The notes under the pieces are model-generated. The model was not told where the DNA came from. It did not search any database and saw only the letters and a list, made by a program, of their open reading frames with translations. From the IMG/VR virus record IMGVR_UViG_3300017744_000143, positions 1 through 24,159 of that record: DNA of 24,159 nt. One strand, written 5' to 3'. This stretch comes from a virus. This document shows positions 3,752 to 18,322 of the stretch, in pieces. Within the stretch, counting starts at the first letter, position 1. The number at the start of each line of letters is the position of its first letter. Both the position numbers and the translations under genes were made by a program.

Positions 3752-4023
3752 TATGTCTTCTTATGTTTATTTGCAAATGTTTTTGCTTGTTGCTTTGAAC
3801 TAAATCCCCATTTTCTAAGTGCAAGGTTTAACCTAGTTGGTCTACCTTTACTATCCAACATAGGACCGGGATTATTACCAAACCTAGCTGCAAAACTTAT
3901 ACGTCTAGGATTTGTACCTTTGTTTATAGGTCTTTGAAGATTACTACCCTCAGTTCTTTTAAAGAAATTACGACCCTTTTGATTAAGTCCACCCTTCTTA
4001 TTCTGAAATGCTTTTTTTACCAT
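3751..4023 (-). CDS. Small basic DUF6321-like protein
   Basis: The ATG at 4021-4023 is chosen over a GTG 18 bases upstream because an AGAGG ribosome site lies 5 bases before it. The 90-residue product has the pattern KKGGLNQKGRNFFKRTEGSN, then NPRRISFAARFGNNPGPM, then KGRPTRLNLALRKWGFSS. This closely follows the small DUF6321-type proteins (GGLN.KGR..Y....G.NL..P......PRR.SF.ARM) seen in marine phages and algal viruses. There is no known enzymatic activity. It is the first gene after a 64-base gap with a perfect -10 box, so it may begin the small-protein/portal transcript. It overlaps the next gene as TAATG. Confidence 0.8.
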   Translation of the reverse strand: MVKKAFQNKKGGLNQKGRNFFKRTEGSNLQRPINKGTNPRRISFAARFGNNPGPMLDSKGRPTRLNLALRKWGFSSKQQAKTFANKHKKT

Positions 4024-6483: not shown

Positions 6484-6903
6484 TTAGAATGAATAATCAA
6501 AATACCTAGTTCTGAAACCTAGACCATAACTACCATGACCTTTTACCCATCTCTTAGCTTTTTCAGACCATTCAACAGTATTGTAGATTTTAAAGTCACC
6601 TTTTTCTGTAGTTACAACAGAAGATTTTAAGTATGCTACACATCCATTTAGGTTAGGTGTATATTCATAACTTTGTTCTTCACTCATCCCATTGTTATCA
6701 ATTCTGTTATAATCATCTTCTTGTATTCCAATAATTTCATAACCTTTATTGTTCCAATTTTCATCAACAGAAAACACACTATAAGGGTGTCTGTCTGACC
6801 AACCAAATCTAGTTGCACCTGAACCAACCTCTACTTTGTAGTCAGCAGGGAAACCTGTGTCTTCTATTGTTCTGATTTGTGAAATACTATAATTTTTTTT
6901 CAT
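6484..6903 (-). CDS. Hypothetical protein (139 aa)
   Basis: This is a 139-residue soluble protein with many aromatic residues (YSF, FGWSDRHPYSVF, WSEKAKRWVKGHGSYG, RTRYFDYSF). No signal peptide, membrane segment or recognised motif is present. The start is well fixed: AGGAG lies 8 bases upstream of the ATG at 6901-6903, and a good promoter (TTGACT, 16 bases, TATATT) lies before it at 6933-6960. A strong terminator follows the stop. It therefore looks like an independently expressed single gene wedged between the candidate small and large terminase genes. I do not recognise the family. The promoter resembles those of the early region, so an early role is possible. Confidence 0.7.
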   Translation of the reverse strand: MKKNYSISQIRTIEDTGFPADYKVEVGSGATRFGWSDRHPYSVFSVDENWNNKGYEIIGIQEDDYNRIDNNGMSEEQSYEYTPNLNGCVAYLKSSVVTTEKGDFKIYNTVEWSEKAKRWVKGHGSYGLGFRTRYFDYSF

Positions 6904-6932
6904 TTGTTTTACTCCTAATTAATAATGATACC

Positions 6933-6960
6933 AATATAGCACATCTGAGAATATAGTCAA
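6933..6960 (-). promoter_or_regulatory. Sigma70-type promoter for the 6484-6903 gene
   Basis: On the minus strand TTGACT (6955-6960) is separated by 16 bases from TATATT (6933-6938). The -35 lies in the context ATTTGACTAT, which is shared with the promoters at 16955-16983 and 17380-17408. The ATG follows 29 bases later, with AGGAG before it. Confidence 0.65.
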
Positions 6961-6964
6961 ATAT

Positions 6965-7119
6965 TAATTGTATATTTATTTTTATCCACATTTTTTTATG
7001 AGGGGGGTATCACAATTATCCTACCCCCCCCCATATTTTGCAAGGAGGGGGTATATCATTTTTTTATATATTTTTATTTATATAATTAAATCAATAACTT
7101 ATATGACTACTGAATAGGT
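6965..7119. other. Non-coding AT-rich region with DnaA box and G/C-tract hairpins (candidate replication origin)
   Basis: No gene is seen here. A perfect consensus DnaA box TTATCCACA lies at 6982-6990. Three GC tracts in otherwise AT-rich DNA follow: G6 at 7002-7007, C9 at 7024-7032 and GGAGGGGG at 7044-7051. The C tract can pair with either G tract: 8 base pairs with the first (AGGGGGGTA region, loop of 12), or with the second across ATATTTTGCAA. From 7052 to about 7105 the DNA is nearly pure A/T, as in an unwinding element. Box, unwinding region and structured block suggest an origin, but no initiator binding is proven. Confidence 0.35.
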
Positions 7120-7578: not shown

Positions 7579-7842
7579 ATGTTGTTATATCAATATGAGC
7601 AATTTACAATCTTTTTTCAAGAAAGAGAGAAGATGTTTATTTGTTACAAAGACAATCAATTTCATAGACACCAACCCTACCACAAACCTGTCACAACTCT
7701 CTTTCAATTGAAAGATGATGCAATGACATGGTTTGATGAATGGGTAAATAAAAAACCTAAACCTAATTATTTAGTAGCTGATGTTGAGGACTCTGCTCAA
7801 ACAATGGCAAGTTTTAGAAACAGTTTATACACTACTGAATAA
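7579..7842 (+). CDS. Hypothetical protein (87 aa), plus-strand early-type gene
   Basis: The ATG at 7579 is chosen over a GTG at 7567 because GAGG lies exactly 6 bases before it. The 87-residue product (MLLYQYEQFTIFFQEREKMF...) has no membrane segment or known motif. It is rich in aromatic residues and contains TWFDEWVNKKPKPNYLVADV. It is a single-gene unit, with a near-consensus promoter and conserved leader in front and a bidirectional terminator after. Strong, autonomous expression opposite to the flanking operons is typical of early phage genes that act on the host, but no function can be read from the sequence. Confidence 0.75.
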   Translation: MLLYQYEQFTIFFQEREKMFICYKDNQFHRHQPYHKPVTTLFQLKDDAMTWFDEWVNKKPKPNYLVADVEDSAQTMASFRNSLYTTE

Positions 7843-13267: not shown

Positions 13268-14061
13268 TATATGCTCTCTTTCTCTTGGTTGTAAAACTCT
13301 TTCAATTCATTTTCACCTGTCCAATAGAATGTATTGGTTTGTGGTATACATTGTCTTGCTTCTTCAGGTGTAAACTTTTCACAAAACTTATTCATCCTAT
13401 TTACTGTCAATCTTGCTTCTTCCATTAGTTGTGTAACATCCCCATCTTCTTTAAAAGCAAACCCTCTTGGTGTGACATAACAAAACTTAACTGAATGGTT
13501 GCTCTTTGCCATTTGATATATGGCTCTTTGTAATTGGTGGTCATATGACTGTGTTGATGGCATCCTATGAGTTGTCTTCAAATCAATTACTGTACCATCA
13601 GGATAAACCAAATCTAAGAAACCTATGAAGTCAACTTCCCAATCATTGACAGTATCTTTCATTGTGAACTTAATTCTTTCTTGGTCACCATTATCAAACT
13701 CAGGACATCCAAATTCTTCTAGTGCTTCAACTGAGTTTCTAATAAATGGTTCAAGACTCTTGAACTCTTTTGCAATAGACTCATCTGCTATTAATGGAAA
13801 CTTACTAGTAAATCTGCTCTCAGCTAATGTGATTGCTTCATCAATTTCTAAGGTCTTTGTCAATACTTCAACAACTGCTTTTTCAACAATCAGACCTCTC
13901 TGCATTGGTGCAGATGTTTTGGTCTTCATGCCAAACCCATATTTGCAAACAAACATAGGTAAGTCATTTCTAAATTGGTTCAGCTTAGATGCTGACATAT
14001 AAGGTTGTAGTTTGCCCTCAGAGAGGTCACACCACTTCTGTATGCCCTGTAAGTTTTTCAA
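13267..14061 (-). CDS. PD-(D/E)XK exonuclease, RecB/Cas4-like
   Basis: Predicted metal-dependent exonuclease for recombination or replication-end processing. The 264-residue protein has MSASKLNQFRNDLPMFVCKYGFG near the N-terminus, the usual lead-in of RecB-type nucleases. The catalytic part is FIGFLDLVYPDG (Asp150) followed by VIDLKTT (Asp160, Lys162). The QLQRAIYQMA segment gives the Q-x3-Y helix motif (Gln178, Tyr182). The start is a TTG at 14059-14061 with GAGG 6 bases upstream; the first ATG is codon 22 and would remove part of the family lead-in. It overlaps the HTH gene end by 35 bases. Confidence 0.82.
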   Translation of the reverse strand: MKNLQGIQKWCDLSEGKLQPYMSASKLNQFRNDLPMFVCKYGFGMKTKTSAPMQRGLIVEKAVVEVLTKTLEIDEAITLAESRFTSKFPLIADESIAKEFKSLEPFIRNSVEALEEFGCPEFDNGDQERIKFTMKDTVNDWEVDFIGFLDLVYPDGTVIDLKTTHRMPSTQSYDHQLQRAIYQMAKSNHSVKFCYVTPRGFAFKEDGDVTQLMEEARLTVNRMNKFCEKFTPEEARQCIPQTNTFYWTGENELKEFYNQEKESI

Positions 14062-14281
14062 ATTCCCCCTCTTTCTCTAAGATTTCATAGAAGTCTTTCA
14101 TCCTAACTTCACCGCCTGTGTATTGGATAATCTTCTTCATAATTCTTAATGATGGCATCCTAAAATTATAATCAAAAGGGTGTGCAATGTAGTTGTAGAC
14201 AGTTTGTTTGCTGACTCCAATCTCTTTTGCAAATCTGTATGGGGTCATATTTCTCTTGTCTAGATATTCTGATAATCTCAT
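14027..14281 (-). CDS. Cro/CI-like helix-turn-helix DNA-binding protein (84 aa)
   Basis: The ATG at 14279-14281 is chosen because AGAGAG precedes it and the product starts directly with the expected first helix; the longer frame begins at a TTG without ribosome site. MRLSEYLDKRNMTPYRFAKE is followed by IGVSKQTVYNYI, a clear XRE-type helix-turn-helix. PSLRIMKKIIQYTGG and VRMKDFYEI follow, as in Cro-like proteins where 'T.G.V...DF' closes the domain. It sits between the integrase and the exonuclease gene, so it may be a lysogeny or early-gene regulator. No second repressor gene is seen in the window. Confidence 0.82.
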   Translation of the reverse strand: MRLSEYLDKRNMTPYRFAKEIGVSKQTVYNYIAHPFDYNFRMPSLRIMKKIIQYTGGEVRMKDFYEILEKEGEFEKLTGHTEVV

Positions 14282-14347
14282 CTTACACTCTCTTTCTGAA
14301 TTATTAAGGTTACATATAATTTTTGTGGACTTCAAATATTAGTTGAC

Positions 14348-14356: not shown

Positions 14357-15466
14357 CTAAAAATCAAAACCAAGATTTATCTTGCTGTTCATCTTCACTT
14401 TTAACAACTGACTATTTTGCCAATCTGTATAAAAATCATCTGTTACTTTTGAACCAATCTTATGACCAATTCTCAACTGCAAACCATCATGGTGTGCTTT
14501 TGTATAATCTTCACCAAAACTATCTCTGTAAGAATTGGCATAGTATCTTCTGTAGGCATGAAATGTTAGACCCTTAGGTTTATCACCATGCATGAATGGA
14601 TGTACTTCATGGTCTTTGTACTTATTATAAGTGTCTTTCCAAATCTTGTGATACCACATCAAGGCAGTTGAATAGGATGGTTTATCACCAAACTTAGTAG
14701 TAATGACCCATTGCCATTTCATATTTGCCCTCTTGTCTGACTTACTTGTTGGAGCAATCTCAGTGTGTTTGGATTCAAAGTATTCTCTGTATGATTTGTC
14801 TTTGAGGTATTGTTGCTTCAGAACTTCCATTCTTTTGTCTACTAACTTCTTTTGCTCAAATATCTTTTCTAAGAATTGTGGGTTGATGTCCATTAGTCTG
14901 TGCTTGTCCATACTCTCATCATTTATCTTAAGTTTGCTATTCTTCATTTTAAGCAATGGCTCTTGTGGATTCTTGATGTTGATGTCTGACCACTTCAAGT
15001 CTAATACTTCATTTACCCTACCCCCTGTTATGGTAGATAGTAGAATTAATAGTTTTTGTTGAGGTGTCTGAGCCATCTCAAGAAGTCTTGTGATGGTGTG
15101 ATGTTCTTTTGGTACATCATTAAATGACTCAAAATGTTTCTTATCTCTCTTTTCATATTTTGGGACAGTGTTCAACTTCACTTGATGAAATGGATTATTA
15201 GTAAACTTAACAAGTTGATACCTTATGGCAAAGTCTATAAGTTGTTGCATCTTCTTCTTAACTCTATTTCTTCTATCAACTGATTTGTCTTTTGCAATCT
15301 GCTCAAAGATGTCATCAAGTGCATTGGGGTGTAGTTGACCCCAATCACTTATATGTCCAAAGTAATCTTGTGCAAGTTTGAAGATTGATTTGTCTTCTCT
15401 GTGAGTGAGTGGACTCATGTCCATTCTCTTATCCATAAATTGATTTATAATAGTAGATAAATTCAT
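14357..15466 (-). CDS. int: Tyrosine recombinase / phage integrase
   Basis: This is a 369-residue site-specific recombinase. An N-terminal SAM-like DNA-binding part (FKLAQDYFGHISDW ... KKKMQQLIDFAIRYQLV) is followed by the catalytic domain. The domain has Arg150 in TGGRVNEVLDLKW, a Lys in the beta-hairpin (KMKNSKLK, 173-180), His303-x-x-Arg306 in LTFHAYRR, His335 in RIGHKIG, and the nucleophile Tyr346 in DDFYTDW. The full catalytic set is present, so it should be active. It is translated by a TAATG overlap after the metallopeptidase gene. It suggests a temperate or integrating lifestyle, although no attachment site or tRNA-like sequence was recognised next to it. Confidence 0.92.
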   Translation of the reverse strand: MNLSTIINQFMDKRMDMSPLTHREDKSIFKLAQDYFGHISDWGQLHPNALDDIFEQIAKDKSVDRRNRVKKKMQQLIDFAIRYQLVKFTNNPFHQVKLNTVPKYEKRDKKHFESFNDVPKEHHTITRLLEMAQTPQQKLLILLSTITGGRVNEVLDLKWSDINIKNPQEPLLKMKNSKLKINDESMDKHRLMDINPQFLEKIFEQKKLVDKRMEVLKQQYLKDKSYREYFESKHTEIAPTSKSDKRANMKWQWVITTKFGDKPSYSTALMWYHKIWKDTYNKYKDHEVHPFMHGDKPKGLTFHAYRRYYANSYRDSFGEDYTKAHHDGLQLRIGHKIGSKVTDDFYTDWQNSQLLKVKMNSKINLGFDF

Positions 15467-16104
15467 TAATACAACTCCCTCAACTCTTGCATATTTTCAT
15501 AATCATTTTCATCATATGGTGGATGTGCAACTTCCATCATCTCAGTCTTTTGTTTTATAAATGGGTTCACTACATTAATTCTCATAATTCTATATATCTC
15601 TTGCCATATTAAACCATGAGGTCTTTTCATACTTTTTAATTTAGATTTATCATACTTTTGTGTATTGTAAGAATCATACAAATATTTTGGCAAAAGATGA
15701 CGATAGCTATATTGAATATAATGTGAAAGTTCATGTGCTACTAACAAGAATAAAATGTCCTCATTATCATTAACTTTTATTTGACCTATTTGTGGGTCTT
15801 TGTTGACACTTTTATATTCTATCCAATATTTATGATTAAAATTCCAACAAGTAGTACAAATATTCATCTCATACCTACCTGCATTTGACCTACCATTTCT
15901 TTTGCGATAAAAGGTTGTGTTCAACATAATATTATCTACTACATCTTTTCTTTTTTTTGAAGATGACATCCATGAACTAGTAGGGTAAAACAAGTCCACT
16001 GATTTTTCTACCCATTGAAACTCATGCTTTTTTAAAAAAAGTTCTTTCATTAATGCTGTCACAAAAAATCTTGTAGATTTTTCATAGTCAACTATTTCTA
16101 CCAT
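15466..16104 (-). CDS. SprT-like zinc metallopeptidase
   Basis: The ATG at 16102-16104 is preferred over a TTG at 16119 because it forms a TAATG overlap with the upstream stop and follows GGGAG. The 212-residue product has a zinc-peptidase motif HELSH (124-128) in LLVAHELSHYIQY, and a downstream RPHGLIWQEIYRIMR (161-175) whose His-Gly gives the third ligand as in SprT-like proteases. Two Cys (ICTTCW) lie before the active site. SprT-like enzymes cleave DNA-bound or crosslinked proteins in some systems; phage homologues are little studied. It sits between the ADP-ribosyltransferase-like gene and the integrase. A host-takeover or DNA-protein clearance role is inferred. Confidence 0.72.
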   Translation of the reverse strand: MVEIVDYEKSTRFFVTALMKELFLKKHEFQWVEKSVDLFYPTSSWMSSSKKRKDVVDNIMLNTTFYRKRNGRSNAGRYEMNICTTCWNFNHKYWIEYKSVNKDPQIGQIKVNDNEDILFLLVAHELSHYIQYSYRHLLPKYLYDSYNTQKYDKSKLKSMKRPHGLIWQEIYRIMRINVVNPFIKQKTEMMEVAHPPYDENDYENMQELRELY

Positions 16105-16691
16105 TATCTTAACTCCCAAAATTTTATTAATATTTCTGACTCTTTCTTGTCACCAAAGTAACAAATGCAATCCTCCTTATTGACTGTCTTTGTCCAAAGT
16201 TTTGCATGTGGTTCTCTTTTAAATTCAACTTGATATTCTTCAGTAATTTTCTTGAAGTGTGAATGTCTTTCTAAAAACCATATAGCTACATCTTTGTCTG
16301 TTGTCCAACTGAAGTGTTTGTCACTTACCCCACCTCTGTAGACATCAAACCTATTTGGTAACTTCTTGAATTTGTTTCTGTCTTTCACTGACATCATCTC
16401 ACTAGCATTTGGTAGCTTCAACAAAATTGACCAAAGTGGCATAGCATTATAAGTGAACTCAGTTTCTTGGTAGACATCTGCAACAAACTTCCAATATGAT
16501 TTGCAACCACCTCTTAATAGAAATTTTGTGTCTAAATCAAGCATTTTATTAGTGAGCATAACCAAGTCATTAGGACTAGGCTCATAATAAAATTTGTTAT
16601 GTGACTCCAAAAGAAACTTGAAATATTTATCAAGTTTCTTCTGTTCTGTGTCACTAATTGTTTCACATGAAACATTGTTTAACTTATTCAT
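16104..16691 (-). CDS. Putative ADP-ribosyltransferase-like protein
   Basis: The 195-residue protein shows, in order, the R-S-E layout of arginine-type ADP-ribosyltransferases in its C-terminal half. It has FDVYRGG (Arg119), FSWTTDKDVAIWFLERH (Ser128-Trp-Thr130, matching the S-T-S strand and following helix), LWTKTVNKEDCICYF, and the terminal ESE at 184-186 in KKESEILI, matching the E-x-E catalytic loop. The N-terminal ~95 residues are helical and unfamiliar. Such enzymes in phages (for example T4 Alt and ModA) modify host RNA polymerase or other proteins. It is second in the early operon, directly after its neighbour's TAG stop. The fold call is by pattern only. Confidence 0.55.
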   Translation of the reverse strand: MNKLNNVSCETISDTEQKKLDKYFKFLLESHNKFYYEPSPNDLVMLTNKMLDLDTKFLLRGGCKSYWKFVADVYQETEFTYNAMPLWSILLKLPNASEMMSVKDRNKFKKLPNRFDVYRGGVSDKHFSWTTDKDVAIWFLERHSHFKKITEEYQVEFKREPHAKLWTKTVNKEDCICYFGDKKESEILIKFWELR

Positions 16692-16922
16692 CTACTTGCC
16701 TTGCTTCAATACTATGTATGTCTTAGGACTTGTCTTGTCCAACTTCTTATACATACTGATGCCTGACCTTACCCAATTAGATGACCCAAACCTTATGATG
16801 GCTCTGATGTCATTATCAGGCAAAGATGTTTGCTTCTTGATTTTAGAAAAAGTATCAGCACCATTCTGTATCAATGGCATGACTTCTTCTAATAATAGTC
16901 TTTCTTTAATATGTAGTTTCAT
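16692..16922 (-). CDS. Small winged-helix-like protein, first gene of the early operon
   Basis: This 76-residue basic protein looks like a winged helix-turn-helix: ERLLLEEVMPLIQNG (helix 1), TFSKIKKQTSL (helix 2), PDNDIRAIIRFGSSNW (recognition helix) and SGISMYKKLDKTSPKTYIVLK (wing hairpin). The start has AAGGAG 7 bases upstream and a promoter at 16955-16983. Being the first gene after a divergent promoter that shares a repeated element with the opposite-strand promoter, it is a good candidate autoregulator of the early switch. The DNA-binding call is from predicted secondary structure, not a recognised family. Confidence 0.65.
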   Translation of the reverse strand: MKLHIKERLLLEEVMPLIQNGADTFSKIKKQTSLPDNDIRAIIRFGSSNWVRSGISMYKKLDKTSPKTYIVLKQGK

Positions 16923-16936
16923 ATTAGTACTCCTTA

Positions 16937-16983
16937 AAATTTACTCTTGATAGTAGTTTACGCTATTTTGAAATAATAGTCAA
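16937..16983 (-). promoter_or_regulatory. Early-operon promoter, copy 1 of a repeated promoter/leader element
   Basis: On the minus strand TTGACT (16978-16983), 17 bases, TAAACT (16955-16960), then 2 bases and TATCAAGAGTAAATTT (16937-16952). The surrounding AAAATTTGACTATTAT and the 16-base leader are repeated with identical spacing at 17376-17426 on the plus strand. The ATG of the 16692-16922 gene follows with AAGGAG. A DnaA-like box (TGTGGAAAA, 17000-17008) lies just upstream. Confidence 0.75.
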
Positions 16984-17041
16984 ATTTTATTTTTATATAT
17001 GTGGAAAAACATTGCTCACATTGACTTACAAGAGAATGTAA

Positions 17042-17131
17042 TTTTTTTTTAAAAAAAGTATTGACCTATGTTTTTGCATGGAGTATCTTGTATGCATAGT
17101 CCAAAAAGATTTGGACAATTATTAACTTAAC
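17042..17131 (+). promoter_or_regulatory. Plus-strand promoter with A/T tract, 5' hairpin and conserved leader
   Basis: TTGACC (17061-17066), a 17-base spacer and TATCTT (17084-17089) form the promoter. It is preceded by a T9A7 tract (17042-17057) resembling an UP element. TGCAT and ATGCA arms (17075-17079, 17092-17096) flank the -10 box. The transcript would begin close to a perfect hairpin GTCCAAA-AAGA-TTTGGAC (17099-17116), followed by ATTATTAACTTAACTAAAGG (about 17118-17137), shared with 17427. It may carry operator and mRNA-protection functions. Confidence 0.7.
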
Positions 17132-17145
17132 TAAAGGCGAAACAA

Positions 17146-17361
17146 ATGAATATTTACAAAATGAATCTAGACCAATTAGAAAACCTACACATCAAATTGA
17201 AAAAAGAAAATGCACAAGATTTACTAGAGAGGAAGACTACAATCAATGATGTTAGAGAAAGTCAAATTTCTGATAATATACAATTTCAAATTCGTGTTTA
17301 CAATGTCATAAAACAAAGAAGACAAAATTTGGAATTTTTAAAATCATTGGCAAGTAGATGA
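17146..17361 (+). CDS. Hypothetical helical protein (71 aa)
   Basis: This 71-residue basic protein is almost entirely predicted helix: LDQLENLHIKLKKENAQDLL, then SDNIQFQIRVYNVIKQRRQ and a short end LKSLASR. It has no membrane segment, cysteine or recognised motif. AAAGG lies 8 bases before the ATG, in a leader shared almost base for base with the next gene. It is the first gene of the plus-strand island and has its own promoter, which suggests immediate-early expression and perhaps a small coiled-coil inhibitor-type protein. Function is unknown. Confidence 0.7.
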   Translation: MNIYKMNLDQLENLHIKLKKENAQDLLERKTTINDVRESQISDNIQFQIRVYNVIKQRRQNLEFLKSLASR

Positions 17362-17375
17362 ATAGTATAAAAATA

Positions 17376-17445
17376 AAATTTGACTATTATCCCAAAAGGT
17401 GCTACTCTTTTATCAAGAGTAAATTTATTAACTTAACTAAAGGTA
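17376..17445 (+). promoter_or_regulatory. Promoter/leader, copy 2 of the repeated element
   Basis: AAAATTTGACTATTAT is followed, 17 bases after TTGACT (17380-17385), by TACTCT (17403-17408), then TATCAAGAGTAAATTT (17411-17426), matching the minus-strand promoter at 16937-16983. ACTCTT and AAGAGT (17404-17409, 17415-17420) can form a hairpin that covers the -10 and early leader. TTATTAACTTAACTAAAGG (17426-17443) then repeats the leader of the previous gene. Confidence 0.7.
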
Positions 17446-17451
17446 AAACAA

Positions 17452-17814
17452 ATGATTAATTTAAAACCATATGATATGTATGACTCAAAAACAAAAACTT
17501 TAAGATTCTGTGACTTTCAGCATTATGTTAAACTTAATGCAGAATTTGAAAAACAAGGTTGGACAATAATTGATATTCAATGCCATGATGTTGATGGTAT
17601 GGATTTCAAAAAGAGTAAGTATGTCAATGGAAAAAGATTTGTTGTGTCCCCTAACAAATTAGGAACAGTCAGAATTACAGTAACATGTGAAAAAGATGAT
17701 TGTAAAATTGTTGCAGTTTATGGGTCAAATTATTTACACAAAGATTTTGCAATGTATCAACTTATGAAGCAAGAGGAACAATATTTAAATGAACATGGTC
17801 ACACAATTCGCTAA
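17452..17814 (+). CDS. Hypothetical protein (120 aa)
   Basis: This is a 120-residue soluble protein of mixed strands and helices with no family I recognise. Features are LNAEFEKQGWTIIDIQCHDV, KYVNGKRFVVSPNKLGTVRI and VTCEKDDCKIVAVYGSNYL, ending KQEEQYLNEHGHTIR. Three cysteines are present, two of them in CEKDDC. The start follows AAAGGTAAAACAA and has a promoter and conserved leader; a strong terminator follows the stop. It is therefore an independent or read-through early gene of the plus-strand island. Function is unknown. Confidence 0.75.
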   Translation: MINLKPYDMYDSKTKTLRFCDFQHYVKLNAEFEKQGWTIIDIQCHDVDGMDFKKSKYVNGKRFVVSPNKLGTVRITVTCEKDDCKIVAVYGSNYLHKDFAMYQLMKQEEQYLNEHGHTIR

Positions 17815-17833: not shown

Positions 17834-17863
17834 AAGGGGGTCTTCATAGACCCCTTTTTTTTT
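17834..17863 (+). terminator. Intrinsic terminator
   Basis: GGGGTCT (17837-17843) and AGACCCC (17848-17854) pair around a 4-base loop TCAT, followed by nine U residues (17855-17863). It lies 20 bases after the stop of the 17452 gene and should end plus-strand transcription before the nuclease gene at 17897. Confidence 0.9.
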
Positions 17864-17890
17864 GCTTAAAGAGTAAAAATAATTTATGCT
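17862..17890 (+). promoter_or_regulatory. Possible promoter giving a leaderless mRNA
   Basis: TTGCTT (17862-17867), 17 bases, TATGCT (17885-17890). The match to consensus is moderate. The ATG at 17897 lies 6 bases after the -10 box, so the mRNA would start at or next to the codon. No ribosome site is visible, which supports the idea. The -35 overlaps the U-run of the previous terminator. Confidence 0.4.
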
Positions 17891-17896
17891 AGTCAA

Positions 17897-18322
17897 ATGA
17901 CAAATGGTAGACAAAAAGGTGCATCTTTTGAGAGAAAGATTGGGAATATGTTGCTTGATGAATTGGGGATTAAATTTAAGAGAAATCTTGAGCAATATAG
18001 AACAAAAGATTTGGGGGATTTGATTACAGAAAATAATGATTTTCCATTTGTGATTGAGTGTAAAATTAGGGGTAAGGGAACAACCTACTCAATGGATTGG
18101 TGGGAACAAGTTACTAAGGCAACTCAAGGCACAAACAAAATGCCTGTTTTAATTTATCAATTAAACAGGTCACCTATTAGATGTGTTTGTGACTTGAATG
18201 TCATATTAGAAACTTTTGGGGGTCAGACTATATATCATCAAAACTTGGTTGAATTAACATTTGAAACATTTTGTATGATATGTAGAGAAATGTTAAATGA
18301 TGGGATAATTAGAACAAACTAA
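17897..18322 (+). CDS. PD-(D/E)XK nuclease, Holliday-junction-resolvase-like
   Basis: Predicted DNA endonuclease, 141 residues. The order is characteristic: GRQKGASFERKIGNML (Glu in helix 1), KRNLEQYRTKDLGDLI (Asp), FVIECKIRGKG (E-x-K), then WWEQVTKATQGTNKMPVLIYQ and the strand RSPIRCVCDL. This resembles archaeal/phage Hjc-type resolvases and related 'putative PDDEXK' phage proteins that cut branched DNA before packaging. The second half ends without extra domains. It is the last gene of the plus-strand island and its 3' end overlaps a convergent minus-strand gene by 14 bases. Another possibility is a host-DNA nuclease. Confidence 0.78.
   Translation: MTNGRQKGASFERKIGNMLLDELGIKFKRNLEQYRTKDLGDLITENNDFPFVIECKIRGKGTTYSMDWWEQVTKATQGTNKMPVLIYQLNRSPIRCVCDLNVILETFGGQTIYHQNLVELTFETFCMICREMLNDGIIRTN

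Follow-up and report, generated by a model that had tools for sequence, protein, structure and literature searches.

Two inverted copies of a predicted early promoter around a small gene in an uncultured phage

Why would a phage carry the same promoter-like sequence twice, facing outward on opposite strands, with its ends kept to the letter and its centre changed? We addressed this question in a 24,159-base virus record, analysed at its full length and called the window here, which has genes for a terminase, a portal, an integrase, a primase/helicase-like AAA protein and nucleases. We presume that the phage is marine, given where related contigs come from. The features of the locus, with promoter function and +1 read from the sequence, are as follows.

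6903–6967, minus strand: P139, a promoter built in the same way (TTGACTATATT, GTGCTATATT, GG, TATCA, TTATTAA, AAAACAAATG)
14357–15466: integrase gene
16692–16922, minus: first gene after P−, for a 76-aa protein with a winged-helix-like model
16937–16997, minus: left arm, predicted promoter P−
16997–16984, minus: AT-rich upstream block of P−
16983–16978, minus: −35 of P−, TTGACT
16960–16955, minus: −10 of P−, TAAACT
16952–16948, minus: TATCA of P−
16948–16937, minus: predicted transcribed block of P−, AAGAGTAAATTT
17061–17116, plus: third predicted promoter P71 (TTGACC at 17061–17066, 17 nt, TATCTT at 17084–17089), inclusive of the palindrome
17099–17116: perfect palindrome GTCCAAA-AAGA-TTTGGAC, just 3′ of P71
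17119–17160, plus: 5′UTR/RBS leader of the 71-aa ORF, beginning TTATTAACTTAACTAAAGG, copy 1 of a 42-nt direct repeat
17146–17361, plus: 71-aa ORF between the arms, one long predicted helix
17366–17426, plus: right arm, predicted promoter P+
17366–17379, plus: AT-rich upstream block of P+
17380–17385, plus: −35 of P+, TTGACT
17403–17408, plus: −10 of P+, TACTCT, with TGC
17411–17415, plus: TATCA of P+
17415–17426, plus: predicted transcribed block of P+, AAGAGTAAATTT
17425–17466, plus: copy 2 of the 42-nt leader repeat
17452–17814, plus: 120-aa ORF, predicted target of P+
17834–17857, plus: intrinsic-terminator-like hairpin and T run, ending the P+ unit ahead of the RusA-like gene
17869–17877, plus: third AAGAGTAAA, 5′ of the RusA-like ORF (17897–18322)

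Two inverted arms with identical ends

The window contains a 61-nt sequence in two inverted copies, at 16937–16997 (minus) and 17366–17426 (plus), with 368 nt between them. Aligned without gaps, the arms agree at 50 of 61 positions, and the inverted-repeat score of 72 compares with 23.9 ± 2.9 for dinucleotide shuffles. All 11 mismatches fall inside the central 20 nt, a clustering matched by none of 100,000 random placements (about 2e-5 analytically). The ends are identical, with TATAAAAATAAAATTTGACTATTAT in the first 25 nt and TATCAAGAGTAAATTT in the last 16, and the central 20 nt keep CAAAA and the −10 letters TA--CT. An earlier note on this DNA had described a duplicated promoter-plus-leader element whose identity runs past the promoter boxes while the centre diverges. 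We found each of its parts (TTGACT, a 17-nt spacer, TAAACT on the minus or TACTCT on the plus strand, 2 nt and the 16-base leader), and the identity extends 9 nt farther upstream than described there.

AAAATTTGACTATTAT lies at 16988–16973 (minus) and 17375–17390 (plus), and TATCAAGAGTAAATTT at 16952–16937 (minus) and 17411–17426 (plus), 2 nt past each −10; each of these 16-mers occurs exactly twice in the window. The 9-mer AAGAGTAAA has only three copies, in both leaders and at 17869–17877 (plus), all 5′ of gene starts. The internal symmetry of the common blocks is weak: alignment of the −35 block with the reverse complement of the +1 block gives an imperfect inverted AAATTT(g)ACTnTT at p about 0.05. 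A search for further operator halves across the intergenic region gave no significant site. An assembly artefact is unlikely, given the internal differences between the arms and a flanking gene order as found in relatives; a single contig spans the site, and the near-identical contigs L009, L010 and L014 end before reaching it.

Promoter anatomy and the make-up of P+

The hexamers of both arms have sigma-70-type spacing (16–18 nt), with TTGACT-17-TAAACT in P−, scoring 9/12, and TTGACT-17-TACTCT in P+. The latter has fewer consensus bases, yet TGN precedes its −10, and P+ thus reads as an extended −10 promoter (TGC-TACTCT). The AT-rich AAAAATAAAA, at about −46 to −37, would occupy the expected place of a proximal UP element. 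Placed by standard promoter spacing, TATCA would span −4 to +1, that is, the discriminator plus the +1 of a host-type promoter; we infer both promoter activity and these starts.

The same pentamer is found at other promoters of the phage. P139, 5′ of a 139-aa ORF, has the full sequence TTGACTATATTCTCAGATGTGCTATATTGGTATCATTATTAATTAGGAGTAAAACAAATG, which contigs L009, L010 and L014 share unchanged. Its TATCA lies two nt past the −10, as in the pair (chance about 0.003 per site), a recurrence consistent with CA at −1/+1. P139 also has GTGCTA, like P+, and the same AAAACAAATG start region. The promoter 5′ of a 91-aa ORF (start near 7580) has TATAAT, immediately followed by TATCA and then TTATTAACTTAA. 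Because TATCA recurs in this way, the 16-base leader appears to divide into a general start-site motif, TATCA, and a pair-specific 12-nt transcribed block, AAGAGTAAATTT.

Between P− and P+ (17061–17361) lie the third promoter and the 71-aa ORF. That both divergent units have a duplicated promoter and start region is supported, but the promoters are not simply back to back. The palindrome at 17099–17116 may be another operator or a 5′ hairpin. In the distant phage L007, an early promoter has a perfect palindrome, ATATCTCAGATAT, directly after TTGACT (about 3997–4018); the same observation covers L002 (about 2777–2805), and the window promoter at 6960 (minus) has a degraded form, ATATTCTCAGATGT, of the L007 palindrome. 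The L007 palindrome and the degraded window version hint at a common operator class.

On the plus side, the unit up to the strong terminator at 17834–17857 is a single 120-aa ORF, so the RusA-like ORF needs its own promoter or read-through. The 71-aa and 120-aa genes have a 42-nt direct repeat in their 5′UTRs (17119 and 17425). Because this leader repeat begins no more than 2 bases from the end of the arm, we read P+ and its UTR as a mosaic: P+ looks assembled from an arm in common with P−, a core like that of P139 and a UTR in common with the 71-aa gene, the promoter of one gene set being built from its neighbours' parts. Neither the 71-aa nor the 120-aa protein had a significant relative in our searches.

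Relatives of the locus and candidate regulators

We gathered about 90 loci through searches with the integrase, primase, 76-aa, 195-aa and RusA-like proteins. In L011, L020–L023 and L016, as in the window, the RusA-like gene is divergent from the integrase side, and CI-like plus Cro-like genes lie at this place in L016 and L023 (in L023 by sequence). Since the divergent layout is kept and some relatives have CI/Cro-like genes here, we consider this a control locus.

The element itself was absent from these relatives. No copy was found in 15 related phage records, many of them fragments, with up to 2 mismatches allowed, nor by DNA similarity in related records, nor among 67 loci with a neighbouring RusA-like gene, many again fragments. 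A scan of viral contigs with the combined pattern gave no matches. No inverted promoter copy near the window's score was present in relatives, including 5′ of RusA in related loci, where L021 has an inverted match of 19 nt (p 0.02), and none in other divergent regions came near 72. The earlier note had itself named absence of the 16-base block near promoters of related phages as grounds for giving up its proposal, and absence is what we found. The absence rules out a family-wide element, not a phage-specific one: among the records searched, the duplicated promoter seems specific to this phage, while the divergent gene layout is common to relatives. The sole match in the genome_contigs set, in Helicobacter didelphidarum, was rejected, as its spacing differs, it has no recognised phage context and about one match is expected by chance.

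The 76-aa protein, first in the minus-strand operon, had been proposed as a winged-helix protein and the natural binder of the element. One of five models was confident, with a winged-helix-like shape. There was no match in the PDB at E <= 0.001 and none in Pfam, PHROG or NCBIfam, and the fold is weakly supported. Its homologues at L001, L002, L007 and L008 are 58–59% identical, with a near-identical putative recognition region, and the element is absent at their loci (partial contigs). The proposal is weakened because loci of such close homologues lack the element. The 76-aa gene and a 195-aa gene (phrog_4776), at 16104–16922 (minus), are conserved neighbours in L001 and L002, and in L007 the 76-aa gene is present and the 195-aa gene is not.

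A 102-aa HTH protein was rejected as the binder, being conserved in relatives without the site: the putative recognition helix is unchanged in L024, and neither L023 nor L024 has the element. A small HTH gene at 14027–14335 (minus) adjoins a PD-(D/E)XK nuclease gene and has matches in most RusA-like-bearing loci. No CI/peptidase-type gene was recognised in the window's ORF list, unlike in L016 and L023. The 71-aa protein, a single predicted helix, belongs to no family found in Pfam, PHROG or NCBIfam; its gene is a putative regulator gene by position only.

Explanations for the pair

We lean, somewhat more than evenly, towards a lambda pL/pR-like pair of outward, co-regulated promoters, with one putative regulator and two strengths. 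P− and P+ would be outward sigma-70-type early promoters derived from one duplicated cassette. The common blocks, −49 to −25 (upstream/−35) and +1 to +12, would be putative contacts of a phage regulator that switches both units together, and the differing spacer and −10 cores would give different promoter strengths, as at lambda pL/oL and pR/oR. We infer such a regulator; its sign is most likely repression because the common sites cover −35 and +1. As in lambda, two outward predicted early promoters have the same sequence over −35 and the start region, and promoters flank a small gene in an integrase-bearing phage. Unlike in lambda, the gene between them has its own rightward promoter and a 71-aa product, a single predicted helix that does not resemble CI. 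Lambda operators are tandem 17-bp sites between −35 and −10, whereas here the common blocks flank the core.

Past +1 the arms agree at 11 of 11 bases, although 11 of the 20 central positions differ (a chance of about 1.5e-4 if divergence were equal), and promoter contacts alone do not suffice as an explanation. Drift after one duplication would not easily confine divergence to the core and leave the transcribed block intact; the core may have been replaced through recombination. This last point feeds a rather unlikely alternative, in which a promoter cassette was reused with no dedicated operator: a recent inverted duplication whose core was replaced or diverged, both units needing an early host-RNAP promoter. 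A recent duplication with later P139-like core replacement could give the same pattern, both P+ and P139 having GTGCTA. The mosaic of P− arm, P139-like core and 71-aa leader UTR fits such reuse, and neither TATCA nor an AT-rich upstream block is unusual in a promoter; the post-+1 identity beside a divergent centre speaks against it, as do the spacer parts ATTAT and CAAAA, which are also kept. As no relative searched has the element, conservation lends no support to an operator, and we counted this, like the weak internal symmetry, against the co-regulated pair. It is improbable, in our estimate, that the site is asymmetric and bipartite (around −35 plus the first 12 transcribed bases) and bound by a small regulator such as the 71-aa protein, in an early-gene or lysis/lysogeny switch replacing the CI/Cro pair of relatives.

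A role of the leader as RNA in both transcripts, as an anti-termination site or a stability or translation element, would explain why the first 12 nt of both predicted transcripts are identical (AAGAGUAAAUUU), and read-through control is conceivable as the terminator at 17834–17857 separates the P+ gene from the RusA-like gene. We consider this very improbable: neither leader folds significantly against shuffles (z −0.56 and +1.42), no Rfam family reaches cut-off, both lack the structured RNA of put/nut-type sites, and they resemble no known anti-termination site. Just 12 transcribed nt are common, the UTRs diverge right after the block, and they are short (about 26–37 nt). HK022 putL/putR likewise have matching sequence at the starts of both early transcripts, but their RNAs are longer and form stem-loops, unlike these 12 nt. 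Hence, of the functions suggested for the leader in the earlier note, the operator stays likely; anti-termination and stability do not, 5 of the 16 bases being TATCA at −4 to +1, also present in a third promoter. Least credible of all are inverted recombination sites around an invertible segment holding the 71-aa gene and its promoter P71. It suits this idea that the arms are inverted, with conserved flanks on either side of a centre that varies, and that an integrase gene lies near them (14357–15466), but differing central sequences block strand exchange in known site-specific recombinases, and the arm centres differ; both promoters would moreover be the same after inversion, and no variant orientation was found.

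If the co-regulated pair is real, regulation in an uncultured marine phage group, some members of which have CI/Cro-like genes and others not, can be tied to a concrete site and a defined control locus, and the missing regulator becomes searchable via its binding site. In two reports on mycobacteriophage cluster A, operators/stoperators are likewise short asymmetric sites at early promoters (PMC9283540, PMC6550527). Those sites are described there as numerous genome-wide, whereas here the full block occurs twice and its 9-nt core three times (PMC9283540, PMC6550527).
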